In this document: positions 48,280-58,806 of the stretch, piece after piece
Position numbering within the stretch: position 1 is the first letter of the stretch
Layout: every line of letters begins with the position of its first letter
IMG/VR virus record: IMGVR_UViG_3300037189_011739
Location: 1 to 64,000 of that record
Length of the DNA: 64,000 nt
Reading direction: 5' to 3' (one strand)
Source of the DNA: a virus
Translations under genes and position numbers: made by a program
Notes under the pieces: generated by a model
Databases searched by the model: none
What the model was told of the DNA's origin: nothing
What the model saw: only the letters and a program-made list of their open reading frames with translations

Positions 48280-48903
48280 TCATTCCTTAATGTCGTAAAT
48301 GTAATGATCCGAAGTCTCAAAGGTTCTTGTATTTTCTACAGAATATAAATTAGTATCAATCTCATATCCTGGATTTGATTCTATGCGATTGAATGTCCAG
48401 GCACTATCATACCATATAATTCTATTATTTGGATATGCATAATAATTACCAGTCTCCACCTTGAACAAATGAGCGCATTTATGTTCTGGAGTTTCTGAAT
48501 AATTAAAGTCCGTCATTGCCTTATTCTCAAATCCCCAGTCAAGAGTGAACATGTACTCACCTTGTACTTTAGTATTATCAGGACGAATAAGTTCTGCTTT
48601 CAATCCGGCAAGACGATTCCTTCGTTGAACATCCACATAAGAAGAGAAACAATCCCAATACATAATTTGATTGAGAGGTTCTATTTCTGCATCAGGTCTC
48701 CAACAAAGTGACTGTAGTGGTCTGCGTGTCCAGTTTACACCATTCTCTAGAAAACATTCAAATAATGGAACTCTTTTCTCCATACTTGCGACAGAGTGAA
48801 CATCACATTTTGTGACTTCACCTTGTCCTTTTTTGTGATTATATAGAAACTCATTACGAATATAACAACTCCAATCTGGAAGGTTGTGATTTAGATAAGC
48901 CAT
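48280..48903 (-). CDS. Conserved phage protein of unknown function
   Basis: The 207-residue protein is rich in aromatic residues (NLPDWSCYIRNEFLY, YMFTLDWGFENKAM, IIWYDSAWTFNRIE) and looks like a soluble beta-sandwich. I recall relatives in other cyanophages without a known function. It lies downstream of the truncated frame left by the EndoVII-like nuclease gene. Confidence 0.65.
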   Translation of the reverse strand: MAYLNHNLPDWSCYIRNEFLYNHKKGQGEVTKCDVHSVASMEKRVPLFECFLENGVNWTRRPLQSLCWRPDAEIEPLNQIMYWDCFSSYVDVQRRNRLAGLKAELIRPDNTKVQGEYMFTLDWGFENKAMTDFNYSETPEHKCAHLFKVETGNYYAYPNNRIIWYDSAWTFNRIESNPGYEIDTNLYSVENTRTFETSDHYIYDIKE

Positions 48904-48991: not shown

Positions 48992-49420
48992 TTATTGATG
49001 CTTTTTAACATATTTAATCATATTCTTGATAAGTTCTACATCTTCATTTACATAACCAATTGTCCTATTACAAATATTACAAAGAAGACCTCTAACCTCC
49101 CCTGTTTGATGATTATGGTCTACAAAAAATACATCTATAGAACCACCTCTTCCACTCTTTCTACCCTTTGGGTCAGTAGTTCCGCAAATGGCACATTTAT
49201 GACCTTGTTTTTCTAATAGGATATTATAATCATTTAATCCAATACCATAAAGTCTTTTTAAATTCTCATCCCTCTTTTTTATGGGGTCATAATTTTTCTG
49301 TTGTTTTTTAATATAACAAGATTTACATTTTCCATGATGACCATAAGGTTCACCATTTCTTACAGTTTGGTAAAATTCTGTAAGTGGTTTTGGTTGATTG
49401 CAGATTTTACAGGTTTTCAT
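48992..49420 (-). CDS. Endonuclease VII-type HNH nuclease beside psbA
   Basis: The 142-residue protein has two zinc-type Cys pairs (C4-x2-C7 and C32-x2-C35), C76-x2-C79, FVDHNHQTGEVRGLLC (D101, H102, N103, H104) and C114-x2-C117, the recombination endonuclease VII arrangement. Free-standing homing endonucleases are known next to psbA in cyanophages, where they target psbA or its intron site. This psbA has no intron. Its end overlaps the possible remnant frame downstream. Confidence 0.85.
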   Translation of the reverse strand: MKTCKICNQPKPLTEFYQTVRNGEPYGHHGKCKSCYIKKQQKNYDPIKKRDENLKRLYGIGLNDYNILLEKQGHKCAICGTTDPKGRKSGRGGSIDVFFVDHNHQTGEVRGLLCNICNRTIGYVNEDVELIKNMIKYVKKHQ

Positions 49421-49509: not shown

Positions 49510-50589
49510 TCAACCGATAGAAGGTGCAGTCAAAGCAACTTGAGTTGTTTGGGCAGCAGCAAGGTCTAAAGGAAAATTATGTGCATTTCTCTCATGCATA
49601 ACTTCAAAACCGAGACCAGCACGGTTAAGAATGTCTGCCCAAGTAGGAATTACACGTTCTTGATTGTCCACGATAGAACCATTATAGTTAAATCCGTTCA
49701 AGTTGAATGCCATGGTAGAAACACCAAGAGCAGCAAACCAGATACCGACTACCGGCCAGGCAGCAAGGAAGAAGTGCAACGAACGGGAGTTATTAAAGGA
49801 CGCATATTGAAAGATAAGACGACCAAAATACCCGTGAGCCGCAATTATGTTATAAGTCTCTTCTTCTTGTCCAAACTTATAACCGTAGTTCTGACTTTCA
49901 GATTCAGTAGTTTCACGAACCAGTGAAGATGTAACCAAAGAACCGTGCATCGCAGAGAACAATGAACCACCGAAGACACCAGCAACTCCAAGCATATGGA
50001 ATGGGTGCATCAGAATGTTATGTTCTGCCTGGAATACAAGCATGTAGTTAAATGTACCGGAAATACCCAAAGGCATCGCATCAGAGAACGAACCTTGACC
50101 GAAAGGATACACAAGGAATACGGCAGTAGCAGCAGCAACAGGTGCAGAGTAAGCAACCATAATCCAAGGACGCATACCTAGACGGTAGGAGAGTTCCCAT
50201 TCACGTCCCATATAGGAGAAGATACCAATCAGGAAGTGGAAGATTACCAGTTGGAAAGGTCCACCATTATACAACCATTCATCCAGAGAAGCAGCTTCCC
50301 AGATAGGATAGAAGTGAAGTCCAATGGCATTAGAAGAAGGAACAACGGCACCAGAGATGATGTTGTTTCCGTACATCAGAGAACCAGCAACTGGTTCACG
50401 AATGCCATCAATGTCCACAGGGGGGGCACCGATGAATGCGATGATGAAACAAGTAGTTGCAGCAAGAAGGCAAGGAATCATAAGGACTCCGAACCACCCG
50501 ACGTACAATCTATTATCAGTTGAAGTAATCCAGGAGCAAAAATCCTCCCAAAGATTATCATTAGAACGTGTAGCAATTGTAGCAGTCAT
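49510..50589 (-). CDS. psbA: Photosystem II D1 protein
   Basis: The 359-residue protein is a full D1: Y161, D170, H190, H198, H215, H332, E333, D342 and A344 all occupy the standard positions for the redox tyrosine, manganese cluster, chlorophyll and quinone sites, and the C-terminal processing site follows A344. Residue 130 is Glu, the high-light (D1:2-like) form. It replaces photodamaged host D1 during infection. No intron is present. The leader upstream is a repeated structured element; no Shine-Dalgarno is seen within 15 bases of the ATG. Confidence 0.98.
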
Positions 50590-50633
50590 TTTTCGTTAAA
50601 GGGTAAAATAAGAATTCAGGGGGAACTGAATGT

Positions 50634-50754
50634 TACAGTTATTTCCATACCACCCTCCAGTACGGATATGAGAGACACTTTACTTCTGATGGTCTCGGTT
50701 GCAGAAGGTTAAGAAACGTAAAGTTTTGTCTTCGTTTCCTGACTTATTTATCAT
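50634..50754 (-). promoter_or_regulatory. Structured psbA leader with late promoter, copy 1 (possible PhotoRC-II)
   Basis: This 121-bp stretch is nearly identical to 51997-52120. It starts with a GATAAATA late promoter. It contains a 6-bp stem CTTCTG/CAGAAG (50683-50688 with 50702-50707) around a loop with ACCGAGA, a second possible stem GGAAACG/CGTTTCT, and a possible GAGA-TCTC pseudoknot. PhotoRC-II is a known RNA motif upstream of psbA in marine cyanophages; identity with it is a guess. It does not encode a protein. Confidence 0.65.
50745..50752 (-). promoter_or_regulatory. Late promoter GATAAATA upstream of psbA
   Basis: The minus strand reads GATAAATA about 155 bases upstream of the psbA ATG, just before the structured leader, so the leader would be the first part of the psbA transcript. 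Confidence 0.6.
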
Positions 50755-50796
50755 AACACCATCAGAACCTGCTGTCAACCCCCTTCCTCAAATAAA

Positions 50797-51957
50797 TTAT
50801 GTTGCAGTTAATGCAGTTACTAATCCAATATATCCAGCACCAATTGCAGTGCTATACTTTGCATTTTTTCCATAAGCAACTACTGTATTGGAATGAAGAA
50901 CAGTAACTCCAGAGACACCAGCAATTGCTCTGTTACTGGCAGGAGATAAAGGTATATCAAAGTAATTATTGATTGTTACAAGAGTACCAGCAGTCATTGA
51001 TACTCCATGTCCTACAGTATTTGTTAGAGATGTGCTAGTAACTATGGCAGTTCCACCATCAACTTTTACACATGCTTCTCCAGCACTGTCAATTTTACTA
51101 TACTGGATTTGTAGAGTTCCTGTTCCACTTACATTAAATGTAGCAGTTGAACCACCAGTTGAGCAGTTACTAAAAAATGCATATCCTTTACTGACTTTTA
51201 CAACATAATCAGTTCCTGATGTACCTGCTCTGGATAATTGTTGAACTTCTGCATATAATTGAGTTCCAGTTCCACTATTATCCATAAAAATTGCCTGGTT
51301 TCCTGTAGAACCTGCAATGATATTACAATCATTTAGATAACAACGAAGAGGTGCTGAACCAGTAACTATTAATGAGTGTGTTGTCCCAATACCAGGATTA
51401 CTTCCAGTATTTACAATACCAAGATTAGAAATACCAAATCGGTTTTGATATAAACTTCCTACTGTTGGATTGATGGTGACTGTTCCATAAATCCATATGG
51501 GCATTTGAGAACCACTTGTAGTATCTCCTTGAATATAAATGTGTCCTGTTGTAAGTCCTATATTCTCTGTTGTAGAACTTTGAAGAATAACAAATTGTGG
51601 ATTTGCAATACTATCTCCATTATCAGTAAAAGATACAATTCCAGTTTGTAGAGCATTTTGAATTGCACTTAATGCTGCACCAACAGTTTTATAAGGAGCG
51701 GCAACAGAACCAGTTGAAGTGTATGTATCAGTTCTATTTGGATTTACATACCAGTGATTATCTGGTGGTGTAAAAAAACCAACTGGCATTATTGGGTTCA
51801 TAACTATTCCAGTTGGAGTAGAACCATCTGATATTTTTAGAACACCATCATTTGGATTATAAAATACTTCACCTTCATCCCCCACAAAGGTAGTTGGATT
51901 AGAACCACCAAGTTTTTCTACAAAAAGTCTATAAACAGTATTGGTGGATAGAGACAT
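50797..51957 (-). CDS. Tail-fibre-like protein with Mtd-type N-terminus
   Basis: The 386-residue protein starts with VYRLFVEKLGGSNPTTFVGDEGEVFYN and GVLKISDGSTPTG, the N-terminal fold I associate with phage fibre and Mtd-type proteins. From about residue 95 it has (S)NAxQ-type turns, then right-handed beta-helix-like strands (ITSTSLTNTVGHGVS) to the end. It probably is a virion fibre or tailspike; no active site seen. It lies between the two copies of the psbA leader. Confidence 0.75.
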   Translation of the reverse strand: MSLSTNTVYRLFVEKLGGSNPTTFVGDEGEVFYNPNDGVLKISDGSTPTGIVMNPIMPVGFFTPPDNHWYVNPNRTDTYTSTGSVAAPYKTVGAALSAIQNALQTGIVSFTDNGDSIANPQFVILQSSTTENIGLTTGHIYIQGDTTSGSQMPIWIYGTVTINPTVGSLYQNRFGISNLGIVNTGSNPGIGTTHSLIVTGSAPLRCYLNDCNIIAGSTGNQAIFMDNSGTGTQLYAEVQQLSRAGTSGTDYVVKVSKGYAFFSNCSTGGSTATFNVSGTGTLQIQYSKIDSAGEACVKVDGGTAIVTSTSLTNTVGHGVSMTAGTLVTINNYFDIPLSPASNRAIAGVSGVTVLHSNTVVAYGKNAKYSTAIGAGYIGLVTALTAT

Positions 51958-51979
51958 TTTATAAATTTCATTTATATCT

Positions 51980-51987
51980 TATTTATG
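51980..51987 (-). promoter_or_regulatory. Late promoter CATAAATA close to the fibre-like gene
   Basis: The minus strand reads CATAAATA ending 22 bases before the ATG at 51957, the usual late spacing. With the site at 52111 this gene would have two late promoters, one on each side of the structured leader. Confidence 0.55.
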
Positions 51988-51996
51988 CTGAACAAG

Positions 51997-52120
51997 TACA
52001 GTATTCCTACACCACCCTCCAGTATAGGTACGAGAGATGCTTTACTTCTGATGATCTCGGTTGCAGAAGGTTACGGAACGTAAAGATTCGTCTTCGTTTC
52101 CTGACTTATTTATTTATCAT
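51997..52120 (-). promoter_or_regulatory. Second copy of the psbA leader element
   Basis: This 124-bp stretch matches 50634-50754 over its whole length with about a dozen substitutions, a 4-base insertion in the promoter part and one missing base. The CTTCTG/CAGAAG stem and its loop, and the AACCTTCTGCAACCGAGA and TACTGGAGGGTGGT blocks, are unchanged. It is upstream of a fibre-like gene rather than a photosynthesis gene. Confidence 0.7.
52111..52118 (-). promoter_or_regulatory. Late promoter GATAAATA in the second leader copy
   Basis: The minus strand reads GATAAATA at the same place in the element as at psbA, with an extra AATA directly following. Confidence 0.5.
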
Positions 52121-52140
52121 AGCATGGACCCTGGGCCTTG

Positions 52141-54690
52141 TCAAGAGGTTTCTTTGGATTTCTTTACTATTGATTTTACCTTTTCCAGTTTCTTCACTCT
52201 TTGCATAACTTCAGCACTTTTAGGGTCCATCCTATTATACATTGCATCTCTCTTTCCGTATTCTGGATGCCAACCATTTACCATTTCTGGCGGTGGATTA
52301 TTTGGATAACCACTTGAAGATGGTTTGTCATCATACTTAAAATTATATCCAAGTTTCTTTAGTGACTTTCTATAAAGACTATCAGTATAATCATCTTCTT
52401 TTGGTTCTTCGGCAATATGACCAAATTGTTTTTCTAACAATTCATTCAATTCAGATTGAAGTATATTGCTTTTTTTATGAGTTTCAGGATCTTCAACAAT
52501 CAATATTTTATCACCACGAATTTCTTCTTTATGAACTACTTTTCCTTTTACTTTGTCAGTATTGACGTTGAAATTATTATAAGCAATATCCTTTCCCTTT
52601 TGATGATTTCTTTCAGTCATCCATTCCCAGAAATGATCTCCAGTTCCAACTCTATCTAATACTTCATTCATTCTTCCTTGTGATAGTCTTACATTTTGTT
52701 GATATTCTTTTCGTCCCCAAATGTTTTCTTCTCTTTGTTTAAAAGGTTGTTCAATTTTAGGATCTTTCATCATAGAAGATCCAATCACTCTTGGTCTTCT
52801 AGTTATCTTTACTTTCTTTTGTTCTGGAAGAACATAAGGTTTTTTGACTTCTTTGAGAATTTGAAGTCTTCTTGAATATTCAGTAGATTGTTTGAGAGTT
52901 GATTTAGTAGATGATGGAGGAGGTAAAGTTGCAGTAATATAGATTGGTTTTAAACTTACATCATTTACATAATATCTAGGATCACCTGTTTCCTGGGAAC
53001 TCCATTGAATATCATTTTTTCTTTCTGCTGGTGTAAGAGTATTCATTCTATGCTGTCCTGCCAATATTAATAATTCCTTTACACCAGGAACATTTCCCCC
53101 AGCAACATCAGTAGGACCATCAAATTGGTAAGTATCAGTTACTGTAATACTACCATCTGGATTTTTTGTTATTTTACTTCCTTTCTCACTTAAATTGTAA
53201 AAAGTTTGATAAGCACTTTGACCCATTGAGGATCCACTAACTTCACTTTTAGAAGTAGAAGTGGTGATTAATTTATTTAATTTATTATAATCACTTTGAG
53301 TCATTTTGGATGGATCATCAATATTCAATTTATTCAATGCATCATTAATAGCATTTGAATATTGTTGAGCATCTTGTTGTGTAAATGGAACGCGAAAAGG
53401 TTTATCGGGAGTAGGATCAATTAAATCCAATTGAGCAGCCACATAAGACAAATATGTTGCGGCAGGAGACCCTGCAGATTTCAAATAGGCATTTATCTTA
53501 TCTTCCAAACCTTTCATAAAATTTCCGGCAGTTTTAGTAACTTGACCAATTGCATTCAGAAGACTATTAATTAATCCACCCTTTTGTTGGTTTTTTGGAA
53601 GTGCAGAACCAGGAGCCAAATTCTTATCAAATGGTCCTACTACTGGAGGAACTCTAGTAGTAGTAACCTTTCTTATTCCCTGTACTGTCATTGGTTGTGC
53701 ATTTAGATTCAACAAATTGGTAATACCTACAATCCAATCGGACATTGGATCACTAGCATTATAGATGTTCAACCAACGAAGACTCAATTTACCATTAATC
53801 CTTACTTCAACATAACCAGAATCATCTCCTGTAAGGCGATTGACTTGAACACTACTTGCAGGTTCATTAATGGCAGACCCAGGACCATTACCACCATTAA
53901 GATATGATCCCATATTATTTTGTTGCCCCCTTTGAATTAAATAATCAGTCAATTGTTGAGGATTATTTGTATCATAATAGAAGACATTGAAGTTTGACGG
54001 AGGGCCCGGAAGTGCATACCAATTTAAACCACCAGGAGGAACAGGAGAAGAGAATTGTTTGCTATTTGGAATTTCGTATGATGCTTTCGGAAGATTTAGA
54101 ATTTGTGCTACAACTCTTCCAAAGTTATCAAAAGTTTGTAATAAATTGTTTTGAGTTCTAGAAAGACCTGTATAAAATACCGGATAATCTGCTACTTTAT
54201 TTGATGAATATTGTGTTCTATACCAAGAGACTTGTTCAGCAGTAAGTTGTCCATAACTGGTAAATCCACTAGAACCATCCCAAGCATCTAAAGTTCCAGC
54301 AACTCTTCCCAGATTAACCATATGTCTATCAGATTCACGGACATATCCAATCTGTGTAGAATTTGTATCAGAATCATAAATGGAAACTATTGGGCCAAGA
54401 AAATAACTTGCATCCCCTGGCGGATCTTGCATCAAAGAAATTCCATAATCAAAGATACCACTAGTATCTCTTCCACTTGATCCATTTAGTGTTAAATCAA
54501 CTGGAACTTCAGGTTCCCCAATATCAGTTCTAATATATTCTGGTTCTACTACATAAATTCCCGAAGTATTGTTGGCTGGAATTTCAGAAAGCATATTGGT
54601 TTGTTGCAATTTAGAATTCAAAAATTGCAACTTTTCATCAATATGCTTGGATGATTTTTTAGAATATTTTTTTATTTTATCAAATTTCAT
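52141..54690 (-). CDS. Large virion structural protein
   Basis: The 849-residue protein has a Lys-rich start (MKFDKIKKYSKKSSKHID), a soluble beta-rich first half (GLSRTQNNLLQTFDNFGRVVAQILN, NRLTGDDSGYVEVRINGKLSLRWL) and a charged, helical second half (KVKITRRPRV, EEIRGDKILIVEDPET, KVKKLEKVKS). Similar large structural proteins with no defined function are usual in cyanophages. Late promoter AATAAATA lies 27 bases upstream. No enzymatic motif seen. Confidence 0.7.
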   Translation of the reverse strand: MKFDKIKKYSKKSSKHIDEKLQFLNSKLQQTNMLSEIPANNTSGIYVVEPEYIRTDIGEPEVPVDLTLNGSSGRDTSGIFDYGISLMQDPPGDASYFLGPIVSIYDSDTNSTQIGYVRESDRHMVNLGRVAGTLDAWDGSSGFTSYGQLTAEQVSWYRTQYSSNKVADYPVFYTGLSRTQNNLLQTFDNFGRVVAQILNLPKASYEIPNSKQFSSPVPPGGLNWYALPGPPSNFNVFYYDTNNPQQLTDYLIQRGQQNNMGSYLNGGNGPGSAINEPASSVQVNRLTGDDSGYVEVRINGKLSLRWLNIYNASDPMSDWIVGITNLLNLNAQPMTVQGIRKVTTTRVPPVVGPFDKNLAPGSALPKNQQKGGLINSLLNAIGQVTKTAGNFMKGLEDKINAYLKSAGSPAATYLSYVAAQLDLIDPTPDKPFRVPFTQQDAQQYSNAINDALNKLNIDDPSKMTQSDYNKLNKLITTSTSKSEVSGSSMGQSAYQTFYNLSEKGSKITKNPDGSITVTDTYQFDGPTDVAGGNVPGVKELLILAGQHRMNTLTPAERKNDIQWSSQETGDPRYYVNDVSLKPIYITATLPPPSSTKSTLKQSTEYSRRLQILKEVKKPYVLPEQKKVKITRRPRVIGSSMMKDPKIEQPFKQREENIWGRKEYQQNVRLSQGRMNEVLDRVGTGDHFWEWMTERNHQKGKDIAYNNFNVNTDKVKGKVVHKEEIRGDKILIVEDPETHKKSNILQSELNELLEKQFGHIAEEPKEDDYTDSLYRKSLKKLGYNFKYDDKPSSSGYPNNPPPEMVNGWHPEYGKRDAMYNRMDPKSAEVMQRVKKLEKVKSIVKKSKETS

Positions 54691-55376: not shown

Positions 55377-56174
55377 TCAAGTGTTACTTTGTTCTGGGGC
55401 ATTTTCTGTAATTCTGCCGAGATAAGGATCATAATCCATCAGTTCCCGAATATTCAACCCTGCCCCCTTCTGTTGCCAAAATTCCAAAAGACCATCGTGA
55501 CTTGATTTGTGAAAAATATCAACGTGCTCTGGGTGAATAGAAGAACCCAATTGAATTTTATAAAGAAGTAAAGGAATACTATAAGTATTTCCAGAATTAT
55601 AAACTAGATCATCTGCAACCGCTCTTGGTTTGCATCCATTATCAAGCTTATACTTATCGCCACGAATATGAAACTTTAAAAGTTTTTCTGCGTGATGCCG
55701 ATTAATCATATAAGCAGCAGTTGAAAAATCATTTACAAATCTTTTATGAAGTTTCACATGAAGAGGTCCAGTACAAATAATAGCAAGTTGAACTACATCC
55801 CAATCATAAGGAACTAATGAATAAAAATCTTTCCAGGAAAAATCCCAATTCTTCACAAGTTGCAGATCAACATCATCTTCCATAATAATTGCATATGGAC
55901 TATCTGTTGTTTCGTACCAATGCCTGATTGCTTTAAGGTGGGAGGTAACACACCCAATCTCACCAGAAGTCATATTATCCGGATAACGCCCGGATATAAC
56001 ATCACTTAAATCATCATTACGACCATCATAAGCAGAAATTCTAGTATAATTTTCAATTTCCCAATACTCAAATTGATCTTCTACATATTGTTTTCTTTCT
56101 GGTTGCCCATCAAGATTAATGTAATAAATTGGACCAATTCCTTGAAGTTTGTAGGTAGATTTGTTTTTATCCAT
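55377..56174 (-). CDS. Glycosyltransferase family 25-like
   Basis: The 265-residue protein starts YYINLDGQPERKQYVEDQF, then SGEIGCVTSHLKAIRHW and AIIMEDDVDL (EDD at 99-101), the GT25 (LPS core galactosyltransferase) pattern. It transfers a sugar to a surface glycan. Overlaps the next gene by 8 bases; it is the last gene of the leftward polysaccharide operon. Confidence 0.88.
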   Translation of the reverse strand: MDKNKSTYKLQGIGPIYYINLDGQPERKQYVEDQFEYWEIENYTRISAYDGRNDDLSDVISGRYPDNMTSGEIGCVTSHLKAIRHWYETTDSPYAIIMEDDVDLQLVKNWDFSWKDFYSLVPYDWDVVQLAIICTGPLHVKLHKRFVNDFSTAAYMINRHHAEKLLKFHIRGDKYKLDNGCKPRAVADDLVYNSGNTYSIPLLLYKIQLGSSIHPEHVDIFHKSSHDGLLEFWQQKGAGLNIRELMDYDPYLGRITENAPEQSNT

Positions 56175-57120
56175 TAGATTTTTGTATAACTTGTTTTACG
56201 GCAGGAATATAATAGTTTTTAATTTGTTTTTTCCAAGCAAATTCTTTTGAATATTCTACTATTTCATTTCTTTTTTGTAAAGATATTGTTCTATTTTCTT
56301 CAATTTTTAAAGACACATATTCCAAATCTATAATTTTACTTTCGGGAATAACAGTAATGAAATCTTTATTTAAATCCAAATTAGCAGTTGCCCATTCAGA
56401 AATCACAAGACCCAATCCAGCAGAGAGTGCTTCCATACAAACAAGTGGATGTGCTTCACCATCAGAGAGCAAAATAAGATTCGCATAATCAGTTAAATTA
56501 TTATACAAATATTCCTTTGACCATTCCCCAAGATAATTTTTATTTCTATCAAATCTTTCATCTACAATATTGCCAGCATAATAAATTGAAGGTATTGATT
56601 GAAATAAACACTGTCTCTTTCGGTAATCTACCTTTGCTAGATAAATTGATCTATTTGGAAATTCTGGCACATTAGTAAATCTAAAATTGTCATTAATCAC
56701 ACCATTTGGAACAGTATATAAGTTCTGTTCTGCAATTCTCATTTGATTTTGATAGATGCTTTTAATGCCATCAGACAAAGCAAAAATATTTGGTTTGATA
56801 TTTGCAAATCCATTTGCTTTATGTGAATAAGCACCATACATTTCTGGTCTTTCTAGATATCCATAATGCGTTGTAATTGCTTTTGGAAATTGAATATATG
56901 GATATAAGAAGACATAATCATCATAATGAACATGGACAAAATCAGGATTAATTTGATTAATCGTTGAAAGAATTTGTTGAGGATCAGTAGTATTAATAAT
57001 ATCTACTTGATGTCCTAATTCTTTCAACGTATTTGCTGTATCCCAAATTACAATTTCAACAGCACCCCAACCAACTGGTGGAATTTGAGAAAACCCAGGA
57101 CCAATGATGCAAATTTTCAT
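56167..57120 (-). CDS. Glycosyltransferase, GT4-like (copy A)
   Basis: The 317-residue protein starts MKICIIGPGFSQIPPVGWGAVE, the nucleotide-sugar side of GT-B enzymes, and has SDGEAHPLVCMEALSAGLGLVISEWA, the E-x7-E type donor motif of GT4. It is a paralogue of the next gene upstream, with the same lead motif and IWD-x2-(N/A). Substrate unknown. Confidence 0.85.
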   Translation of the reverse strand: MKICIIGPGFSQIPPVGWGAVEIVIWDTANTLKELGHQVDIINTTDPQQILSTINQINPDFVHVHYDDYVFLYPYIQFPKAITTHYGYLERPEMYGAYSHKANGFANIKPNIFALSDGIKSIYQNQMRIAEQNLYTVPNGVINDNFRFTNVPEFPNRSIYLAKVDYRKRQCLFQSIPSIYYAGNIVDERFDRNKNYLGEWSKEYLYNNLTDYANLILLSDGEAHPLVCMEALSAGLGLVISEWATANLDLNKDFITVIPESKIIDLEYVSLKIEENRTISLQKRNEIVEYSKEFAWKKQIKNYYIPAVKQVIQKSNG

Positions 57121-58082
57121 TGAATGGTCTCCATCTTTTCAATATTTTGAATATAAAGTTTGACAAGTTTTTCCCAAGAGAAATTTTCCATAGCATAATC
57201 ACGAATTTCATCACGAATAGGTAAAGATGCTTGACGATTTTCTTCAATTTTATTCTTTACATAGTCAATATCTTCTAGTTTATCGTCATCAATTAAAGTA
57301 ATAAAAGGAAGAGAAGTATCTACATCGTGTGCTGCATATTTGGAAATCACAACACCAAGACCATTAATCAGTGCTTCTTTTACAACTAGTGGTGTTCCAT
57401 TTTCTCCATCAGAAAGAAGTACAAGATTCCCATAATCGGTCAAATGTTCTTTTTTATATTCATCTGTCCATTCTCCAAGATAATTGATTGAGGTATCAAA
57501 TGGAGTAGATTTGCTATCCTTTCCAACAAAATCAATACAATTAATAGATTGATACAACCACTGCTTTTTGCGATGATAAATCTGCCCTAGGTATAATGAG
57601 CGATTTGCTTTTGTTGGTTCTTTGGAATAAGTAAAGGTCTCGTGATTTGCACCATTTTCAGAAAGAAGCAATTTGCTTTCATCGGCACCGGCATTTTTGA
57701 AAGTTTGATAATCTTTTTTGGAGATACAGAAGATATAATACTTTTTGTTTTTGATAATAAAATCAAAAGTTTTATCATATCCATCTCTACGATGCATATA
57801 AGATTGATCAATATATGGATAATGACTACTTAAAGCAATTTTAGGAATGTCTGGAATGAGATCTAATATCTCGTGAAAGACATCGTAATGAAGATGAGCA
57901 AAATCATACTTATCTTGCTTTAAGTAATTTAAAATCTCATTCCAGTTTGGAGTATTAATAATCGTACCAGTATGTCCCAACTTATCAAGCTCAAGAGCAT
58001 AATCCCAAATTAAACTTTCAACTGCGCCCCATCCATCAGGAGGAATGGGCATAATGCCAGGACCAATCAGAGCAACATTCAT
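57117..58082 (-). CDS. Glycosyltransferase, GT4-like (copy B)
   Basis: Start chosen at ATG 58082 (MNVALIGPGIMPIPPDGWGAVE). The 321-residue protein shares layout with copy A, including LILSDG-type NLVLLSDGENGTPLVVKEALINGLGVVISKYA near the C-terminus. The longer frame from 58112 would run into the gene before. It overlaps copy A by ATGA. Confidence 0.83.
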   Translation of the reverse strand: MNVALIGPGIMPIPPDGWGAVESLIWDYALELDKLGHTGTIINTPNWNEILNYLKQDKYDFAHLHYDVFHEILDLIPDIPKIALSSHYPYIDQSYMHRRDGYDKTFDFIIKNKKYYIFCISKKDYQTFKNAGADESKLLLSENGANHETFTYSKEPTKANRSLYLGQIYHRKKQWLYQSINCIDFVGKDSKSTPFDTSINYLGEWTDEYKKEHLTDYGNLVLLSDGENGTPLVVKEALINGLGVVISKYAAHDVDTSLPFITLIDDDKLEDIDYVKNKIEENRQASLPIRDEIRDYAMENFSWEKLVKLYIQNIEKMETIQ

Positions 58083-58083
58083 A

Positions 58084-58806
58084 TCAATAAAGTTCTTTAT
58101 ATGCGTGAACAAGTGAGTAATTTGAATTTCTAAAATCTGGTGTTTTCCAAGTTTCAGTCAAATTAGTATTAATCGTATAATCTTTACCGCAAATAAAATA
58201 AGCAATTTGCATATAAAGATCCAACCATCCAAATCTATGATCTAGATTTTCTAAAATATAATCAAATTCAAAATCAATAAAATCATAAATTTTATGATAA
58301 TTGTCCAGAAAGGTGTCAATATTATAGATGCTTCCGCCCCCAGCACCATACCAATCTACATTTGGTTTTGCTCCATATTTGAGCGAGATGTAATCCAAAA
58401 GTCCTGTTTCAATTTTATTTCCAGGAACATCAAATCCAGCACATTCCCAAGAAGGATCAATTTTAACTTTCCCCTGTGTGAGGACATCATCTTCCATCAT
58501 AATCATATGAGTTCCGCCATTCTCTCTAACATGAAGTGCTGCTTCACGAAAATGATGAATCCAATGAAGACTTTCATCTTTTGTAAATCCATAAATCCCA
58601 GAAGGATCTCCCCAATTCCTTCTACCAATACGCATATAAGAATGAACGTATTTGCAGTTATATTTTTTTGCTAGATCGGAGTAATCTACTCCACCATCAC
58701 AAATTAGAGTATAAGGAGCATCTGGATAAAATTTCCTAAACTCTTGCAAAATAAACTCTGTTGCTCTTTTATTTTCATACACTGTATGAAAGCATCCAAA
58801 AGTCAT
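58084..58806 (-). CDS. Probable glycosyltransferase, GT-A type
   Basis: Start chosen at ATG 58806 (MTFGCFHTVY), with GGAAGG upstream; the TTG at 58839 would lie far into the gene before. The 240-residue protein has LICDGGVDYSDLA and MIMMEDDVLTQ, a GT-A-like acidic motif (EDD), and GAGGGSIYNIDTF. I cannot name the family. Part of the overlapping glycan operon. Confidence 0.7.
   Translation of the reverse strand: MTFGCFHTVYENKRATEFILQEFRKFYPDAPYTLICDGGVDYSDLAKKYNCKYVHSYMRIGRRNWGDPSGIYGFTKDESLHWIHHFREAALHVRENGGTHMIMMEDDVLTQGKVKIDPSWECAGFDVPGNKIETGLLDYISLKYGAKPNVDWYGAGGGSIYNIDTFLDNYHKIYDFIDFEFDYILENLDHRFGWLDLYMQIAYFICGKDYTINTNLTETWKTPDFRNSNYSLVHAYKELY

Follow-up and report, generated by a model that had tools for sequence, protein, structure and literature searches.

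PhotoRC-II is an RNA family (RF01717; Weinberg et al. 2010) that has so far been described only before psbA-type genes (PMC2864571), and it has until now been regarded as a cis-regulatory RNA of psbA alone, with an unknown mechanism. Three other systems offer points of comparison. In phage S-PM2d, psbA is the sole phage gene that responds proportionately to light, and a hairpin has been noted in its 5′ untranslated region (PMC5931967). T4-like phages carry promoter early stem-loop cassettes, or PeSLs (Arbiol 2010 and Comeau 2014, as cited in PMC4503421). The homing endonuclease F-CphI is free-standing and is encoded beside psbA (PMC6083498).

The locus described here lies in a stretch of 64,000 nucleotides from a marine cyanophage, referred to below as the window (positions 1 to 64,000 of IMG/VR virus record IMGVR_UViG_3300037189_011739). 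Two of its noncoding stretches, both on the minus strand along with the genes that they precede, are much alike: when 50634-50754 and 51997-52120 are aligned after reverse-complementing, 106 of the 120 aligned bases are the same and 14 differ, with gaps in 5 further columns, and the likeness falls off beyond these limits. Copy 1 lies upstream of psbA, which encodes the 359-aa photosystem II D1 protein (49510-50589, minus strand; Pfam Photo_RC, PHROG 182), and copy 2 lies upstream of an open reading frame of 386 aa (50797-51957, minus strand). When the whole window was compared with all 4227 Rfam families by Infernal, RF01717 aligned over its full model length to both copy 1 (50631-50721, minus strand; 59.5 bits, E value of 1.3e-7) and copy 2 (51993-52083, minus strand; 48.5 bits, E value of 4.2e-5), in each case above the curated gathering cut-off of 39 bits. 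These E values exclude a chance match for either copy. A preliminary description, made from the letters of the window, had reported two stretches of about 120 bp with about a dozen changes, one leading into psbA and the other into a fiber-like gene, and had offered PhotoRC-II as a guess to be checked with this covariance model; all of these points hold. Each copy has GATAAATA and, as that description had stated, the ACCGAGA loop and the CTTCTG/CAGAAG stem. The position upstream of psbA is an association of the PhotoRC-II family and not part of the RF01717 model. No third copy was found in the 70,663-base IMG/VR record.

The distance from the end of the element to the start of the gene is 41 nt for psbA and 35 nt for the 386-aa open reading frame. 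Homology between the copies ends at TTCAG, and the hairpin in the 3′ part of the psbA leader (TTCAG-TTCCCCC-TGAA) and the sequence just before the ATG are not common to both. Upstream of copy 2 is a gene of 849 aa (52141-54690, minus strand), for which neither Pfam nor PHROGs gave a family match.

Both copies sit behind TTGACA-17-TATGATAAATA, a sigma70 promoter that overlaps a late motif. In copy 1 (promoter at 50745-50778, minus strand), TTGACA (50773-50778) is spaced by 17 bp from TATGAT (50750-50755), which overlaps GATAAATA (50745-50752). The promoter of copy 2 (52111-52144, minus strand) has TTGACA at 52139-52144 and TATGAT at 52116-52121, with the same spacing and the same overlap with GATAAATA, and its -35 box also overlaps the 3′ end of the 849-aa gene. 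NATAAATA is the late, gp55-type promoter motif (PMC2984593), and GATAAATA is that motif, lying over the -10 box. The preliminary description had placed a late promoter at the head of both stretches, which was accurate as to GATAAATA and incomplete, since a full sigma70 promoter (TTGACA, 17 bp, TATGAT) overlaps NATAAATA. The order TTGACA, 17 bp, TATGAT, and then AAATA or a sequence close to it is shared by the two copies with nearly all of the PhotoRC-II leaders compared, and 93 of 96 nonredundant leaders match the sigma70 consensus with at most 2 mismatches of 12, compared to a mode of 4 for shuffled sequences. The psbA gene of S-PM2d has a promoter of the same dual type (PMC5931967). In S-PM2, no PhotoRC-II was detected above the cut-off, the best score (17.2 bits) being a chance match inside a long open reading frame, and so the light result of S-PM2d is not simply transferable to PhotoRC-II leaders.

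The promoter belongs to the shared block, and the likeness between the copies might be one of promoter DNA only, with no RNA structure behind it. The covariance-model matches of both copies speak against this explanation, as do three features of the leaders themselves: the covariation of a pseudoknot, the stability of a 5′ hairpin, and the compensatory changes in P2 between the copies; we consider it extremely improbable. Copy 2 has all the features of RF01717, namely the P1 and P2 hairpins, the conserved loop, and the linker. P1 is identical in the two copies. P2, with the loop GGAGGGU, is found at 50644-50666 (minus strand) in copy 1, based on the Rfam alignment and the sequence, and at 52006-52028 (minus strand) in copy 2, where its 8 pairs are intact; the stems differ by two-sided changes. 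The same hairpin was found in 42 of 106 nonredundant psbA upstream regions from loci gathered by protein similarity.

The RF01717 model as printed is nested and has no pseudoknot helix. In copy 1 (50672-50696, minus strand), GAGAC of the P1 loop (50692-50696) pairs with GUCUC of the linker (50672-50676), and in copy 2 (52034-52058, minus strand), GAGAU (52054-52058) pairs with AUCUC (52034-52038), giving all five pairs with a two-sided change relative to copy 1. The loop and linker vary together among relatives, as GAGAU/AUCUC, GAGGC/GCCUC, GGGGC/GCCCC, GGGAU/AUCCC, and AGGAC/GUCCU. In an alignment of 33 sequences, a set chosen by psbA similarity together with the two-copy loci, 98.2% of the pseudoknot cells are paired and two-sided changes occur in four of the five pairs. 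The covariation score, a statistic subject to a caveat of relatedness although the variants nonetheless arise in different lineages, was reached by 0 of 500 shuffles, and shifting the partners abolished the signal; the compensatory changes that the preliminary description had proposed to look for in other phages are thus present. Loci from the AGGAC pattern scan were excluded from the pairing test, since that pattern had been picked for pairing. PhotoRC-II is on the CaCoFold list of families with missing covarying pairs (PMC7657543), so the pseudoknot may already be known to others.

Two further hairpins lie outside the Rfam model. P0, between the promoter and P1, has a mean z score of -2.86 over 88 leaders. 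P4, the C-rich-loop hairpin UUCAG-UUCCCCC-UGAA before psbA (50615-50630, minus strand), was found in 41 of 43 psbA leaders compared to 10% of shuffles; it is absent after copy 2 and was not found in the three non-psbA leaders tested. The P4 loop UUCCCCC (within 50615-50630) and the P2 loop GGAGGGU (50652-50658) are conserved and partly complementary over the psbA leaders, and a kissing contact between AGGG of the P2 loop and the C-rich loop of P4 is possible; both loops hardly vary among leaders. Pure promoter homology was rejected for the family on the grounds of structure and covariation, and judging from the alignments, we regard the PhotoRC-II structure in these leaders as real.

The preliminary description had called the psbA leader duplicated, and a local tandem duplication of the window's own leader would agree with the adjacency of the copies, their common strand, the 106 identical bases of 120, and the identity of P1. 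We nonetheless find such a duplication very unlikely. In a comparison by module, copy 2 of the window and of L124, L125, L127, and L071 overall resembles psbA leaders from other phages more than it does the copy 1 beside it. In the window, the difference over the whole length is small (0.84 to other psbA leaders versus 0.83 to copy 1) but holds consistently by module, the corresponding values being 0.88 and 0.84 for P0, 0.93 and 0.91 for P1, 0.92 and 0.75 for the P2 arm, and 0.82 and 0.67 for the 3′ part. Likewise at odds with a local duplication, copy 2 has the 3′ half of P2 in common with copy 2 of other phages, the leader types differ in other two-copy genomes, and the 386-aa gene has been laterally transferred (see below). 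In L124, the 5′ half of copy 2 matches the L333 psbA leader at 98 to 100% identity through the 5′ arm of P2 as far as the P2 loop; it then switches to the 3′ part that is linked with the 386-aa gene, and P2 no longer fully pairs. On this comparison, copy 2 appears to be derived not from copy 1 but from a different leader, and we do not retain the term duplicated, with the qualification that the origin of copy 2 could be obscured if the two have undergone gene conversion.

The 386-aa gene has 14 relatives in IMG/VR. Its nucleotide identity is 95.6 to 97.8% in comparisons of phages that share only 77 to 88% identity at the 5′ end of psbA, and in the same phage pairs dS is 0.04 to 0.08 for the 386-aa gene versus 0.8 to 1.5, near saturation, for psbA. 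In the other two-copy phages, the genes that lie upstream show no relation to the 849-aa gene. With breakpoints inferred from drops in identity, the window and L124 share a block of 98 to 100% identity that runs from the P2 loop of leader 2 to the -10 box of leader 1, and the likeness of the window to L125 and L127 starts within leader 2 and stops at the -35 box of leader 1. The low dS beside a nearly saturated psbA, together with block ends inside the leaders, indicates that recombination at PhotoRC-II leaders has transferred the gene laterally, and that the psbA leader served as the joint of the exchange.

Our main explanation is that copy 2 is probably a further leader, with an origin other than that of copy 1, joined to a 386-aa gene that is spreading among cyanophages by recombination at the psbA leader. 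The sequences themselves demonstrate that the copies belong to the family, that they are structured, that the gene was laterally transferred, that the exchanged block ends in leaders, and that the arrangement recurs with other genes. Both stretches carry P0, P1, the pseudoknot, and P2 behind the dual promoter and so are complete PhotoRC-II leaders, copy 1 being the psbA gene's own. Crossovers in conserved leader sequence, in the P2 loop GGAGGGTGG on one side and in the -35/-10 region on the other, would place the gene between two leaders. By an insertion of this kind, psbA would retain its regulatory region and the newcomer would gain the psbA promoter and most of the 5′ leader. Divergence of the two copies would be expected to lower the rate of excision by recombination between direct repeats.

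How unusual this arrangement is can be judged from an IMG/VR DNA pattern scan, which gave at least 120 loci. Among the 121 matches listed, psbA directly follows in 113, the contig ends in 6, and other genes follow in 2 (L071 copy A and L109). Whole-record covariance scans of the loci listed found exactly one PhotoRC-II copy in each of 118 records. Among named phages, a blastn search, which may miss divergent second copies, gave 175 places in 175 records and none with two. The scan patterns fixed parts of the motif, and the counts of exceptions are therefore lower bounds. The window and five other records (G002 to G006) have the 386-aa gene between two copies, and further fusions of PhotoRC-II to this gene occur in L357 and L358; L130 carries the gene without PhotoRC-II upstream. 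A targeted scan and a search with a neighboring 161-aa gene found the order leader, other gene, leader, psbA around a 136-aa gene (L342), 168-aa-type genes (L375 and L376; L345 breaks off ahead of its second leader), and a gene of 89 aa (L071 and L378). The relatives all come from metagenomic contigs, of which many are fragments cut at the locus; an assembly artifact is unlikely, given the same arrangement in independent contigs. Across these contigs, two-leader loci appear to be rare but recurrent, with several unrelated genes and often beside a candidate HNH endonuclease. PhotoRC-II before a non-psbA gene is not reported in PMC2864571 or PMC9602691. The psbA leaders of L042, L071 copy B, and L104 share an enlarged P1 loop (CTTGCCGAAAAGGGACGAAACTCCTCACCGAGACTAGGCAAG) and differ in P2 and the 3′ part, suggesting that leader modules shuffle in single-copy phages too.

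The 161-aa gene has an HNH-like motif read by eye and a helix-turn-helix C terminus, and it is found in L071 (4851-5333), L130 (9266-9748), L342 and L345 (reverse strand), and L368 to L384. In many phages it lies directly upstream of the psbA leader, with varying passenger genes and at times with a leader on both sides, and its product is a candidate for a homing endonuclease directed at that leader. Such an enzyme could drive the exchange by cutting leader DNA, the repair copying endonuclease, passenger gene, and leader together, with subsequent loss of the endonuclease from the window. This proposal is possible but somewhat doubtful. PhotoRC-II and psbA directly follow the 161-aa gene in 14 of 17 loci, four loci (L370, L372, L375/L376, and L378) have leaders on both sides with differing passenger genes, and in L130 and L134 the 161-aa gene comes right after the 386-aa gene. 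However, Pfam and PHROGs detect the helix-turn-helix part only, with no nuclease domain above the cut-off, the HHNPPRCEGG motif, having been read by eye, amounts to no more than a lead, and the gene is absent from the window and from L123 to L127.

Other features of the locus were also noted. Directly downstream of psbA, the window has an endonuclease VII-type gene (48992-49420; Pfam Endonuclease_7) with the position and catalytic type of F-CphI (PMC6083498). In L130 (9929-11861), L372, L373, L377, L378, and L382, psbA is split at several positions by homing-endonuclease open reading frame inserts or group I introns. A 207-aa protein (48280-48903) matches PHROG 3704, annotated as ferredoxin (1.4e-49), a doubtful label in that Pfam gives a weak Ig-like match. 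The adjacent paralogous genes at 56167-57120 and 57117-58112 are about 40% identical and look glycosyltransferase-like by eye.

The 386-aa protein has no family match above a curated cut-off; a weak N-terminal likeness to Mtd_N (14.7 bits) lies below the cut-off of 26.3, and the N terminus matches PHROG 36222, a family of unknown function. A sequence search of the PDB gave no match, and a structure prediction from 7 sequences had a pLDDT of 37. L129 has the same C-terminal part on another N terminus, and the adjacent gene is homologous to one annotated as "L-shaped tail fiber protein assembly"; relatives of the gene thus display both a modular exchange of N termini and a neighborhood of tail genes. 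dN/dS is 0.4 to 0.8. Named phages yielded no full-length homologue, only the N terminus, in S-CAM7, where it lies near gp44 and where neither a late motif nor a leader was seen before it. We consider fiber-like a fair, if unproven, label.

Copy 2 would presumably be transcribed as the 5′ end of the fiber gene mRNA, and it may give psbA-like expression, early and late and possibly linked to light; control of the 386-aa gene by copy 2 is plausible. It could even be that copy 2 has been kept by selection, PhotoRC-II control being useful to the fiber-like gene and a possible receptor-binding protein being co-regulated with psbA, e.g., by light or photosynthetic state, a reading compatible with insertion at the leader and, to us, rather doubtful. 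In its favor, the window copy 2 has a full promoter and a complete P1, pseudoknot, and P2, the spacing from element to ATG resembles that of psbA, and six different leader haplotypes precede the same 386-aa gene. The light-responsive psbA of S-PM2d, with the same dual promoter type and a 5′ hairpin (PMC5931967), also fits, but S-PM2 has no PhotoRC-II above the cut-off. Further evidence against such selection is that P4 and the psbA start region are absent from the non-psbA leaders tested, and that L130 has the 386-aa gene with no leader. There is also a late-type motif in the interval from leader to ATG: when the upstream regions are aligned, CATAAATA, a remnant or variant of it, falls at 51980-51987 (minus strand), L125, L127, and L130 have TATAAATA at this site, and the proximal motif takes the form (T/C)ATAAATAAG. 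P2 is intact in the window copy 2, but 4 of 12 non-psbA copies have a broken P2, compared to 4 of 93 leaders of psbA (P = 0.006). An incomplete pseudoknot occurs in 3 of these 12 copies and in 1 of these 93 leaders. Both differences would be expected for recombination scars under weaker constraint. In view of the truncated leader, the proximal late-type motif, and the broken P2 and pseudoknot of some non-psbA copies, we hold insertion at the leader as the main explanation and selected control as a possible addition to it; copy 2, with its truncated leader, primarily resembles a joint left where a gene was laterally inserted. The broadest interpretation, in which the psbA leader is a portable regulatory and recombination module that puts inserted genes, including a possible receptor-binding fiber, under the psbA promoter and RNA leader so that a host-recognition part is expressed with light or photosynthetic state, is speculative and unlikely.

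Natural fusions of PhotoRC-II to unrelated genes are ready-made experiments: the fiber-like gene without a leader (L130), set against the same gene with one (the window or L127), could separate an RNA effect from a psbA effect, and a light-linked fiber gene is a testable prediction. The conserved RNA loop, as a homology joint, would give a concrete breakpoint for cyanophage gene exchange at the psbA locus, and the pseudoknot and extra hairpins provide a better model with which to find and test the psbA leader.

Among known systems, F-CphI resembles this one in that psbA is a hot spot of recombination owing to its endonucleases and introns (PMC6083498, PMC5931967), but F-CphI acts at an intron insertion site in psbA, whereas the exchange in the window would be upstream, in the leader. 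PeSLs (as cited in PMC4503421) are likewise modules of promoter and stem-loop that flank exchanged genes and offer homology for shuffling, as the block here ends in two leaders; they differ in joining an early promoter to a terminator hairpin, in many copies per genome, whereas the window has a long structured psbA 5′ leader with a dual sigma70/late promoter and hairpins downstream of the promoter, in two copies only. The psbA leader of S-PM2d (Puxty et al. 2018, PMC5931967) shares the dual sigma70/gp55 promoter and a structured 5′ leader, but it is without PhotoRC-II above the cut-off and, as far as tested, is not common to another gene there. The closest likeness is to PhotoRC-II itself, with both copies above the cut-off, P1, P2, the conserved loop and linker, a cyanophage setting, and copy 1 before psbA; what sets the locus apart is a second copy that precedes a non-photosynthesis gene, together with three elements that the printed Rfam model lacks, namely the pseudoknot, P0 at the 5′ end, and the C-rich P4 at the 3′ end.
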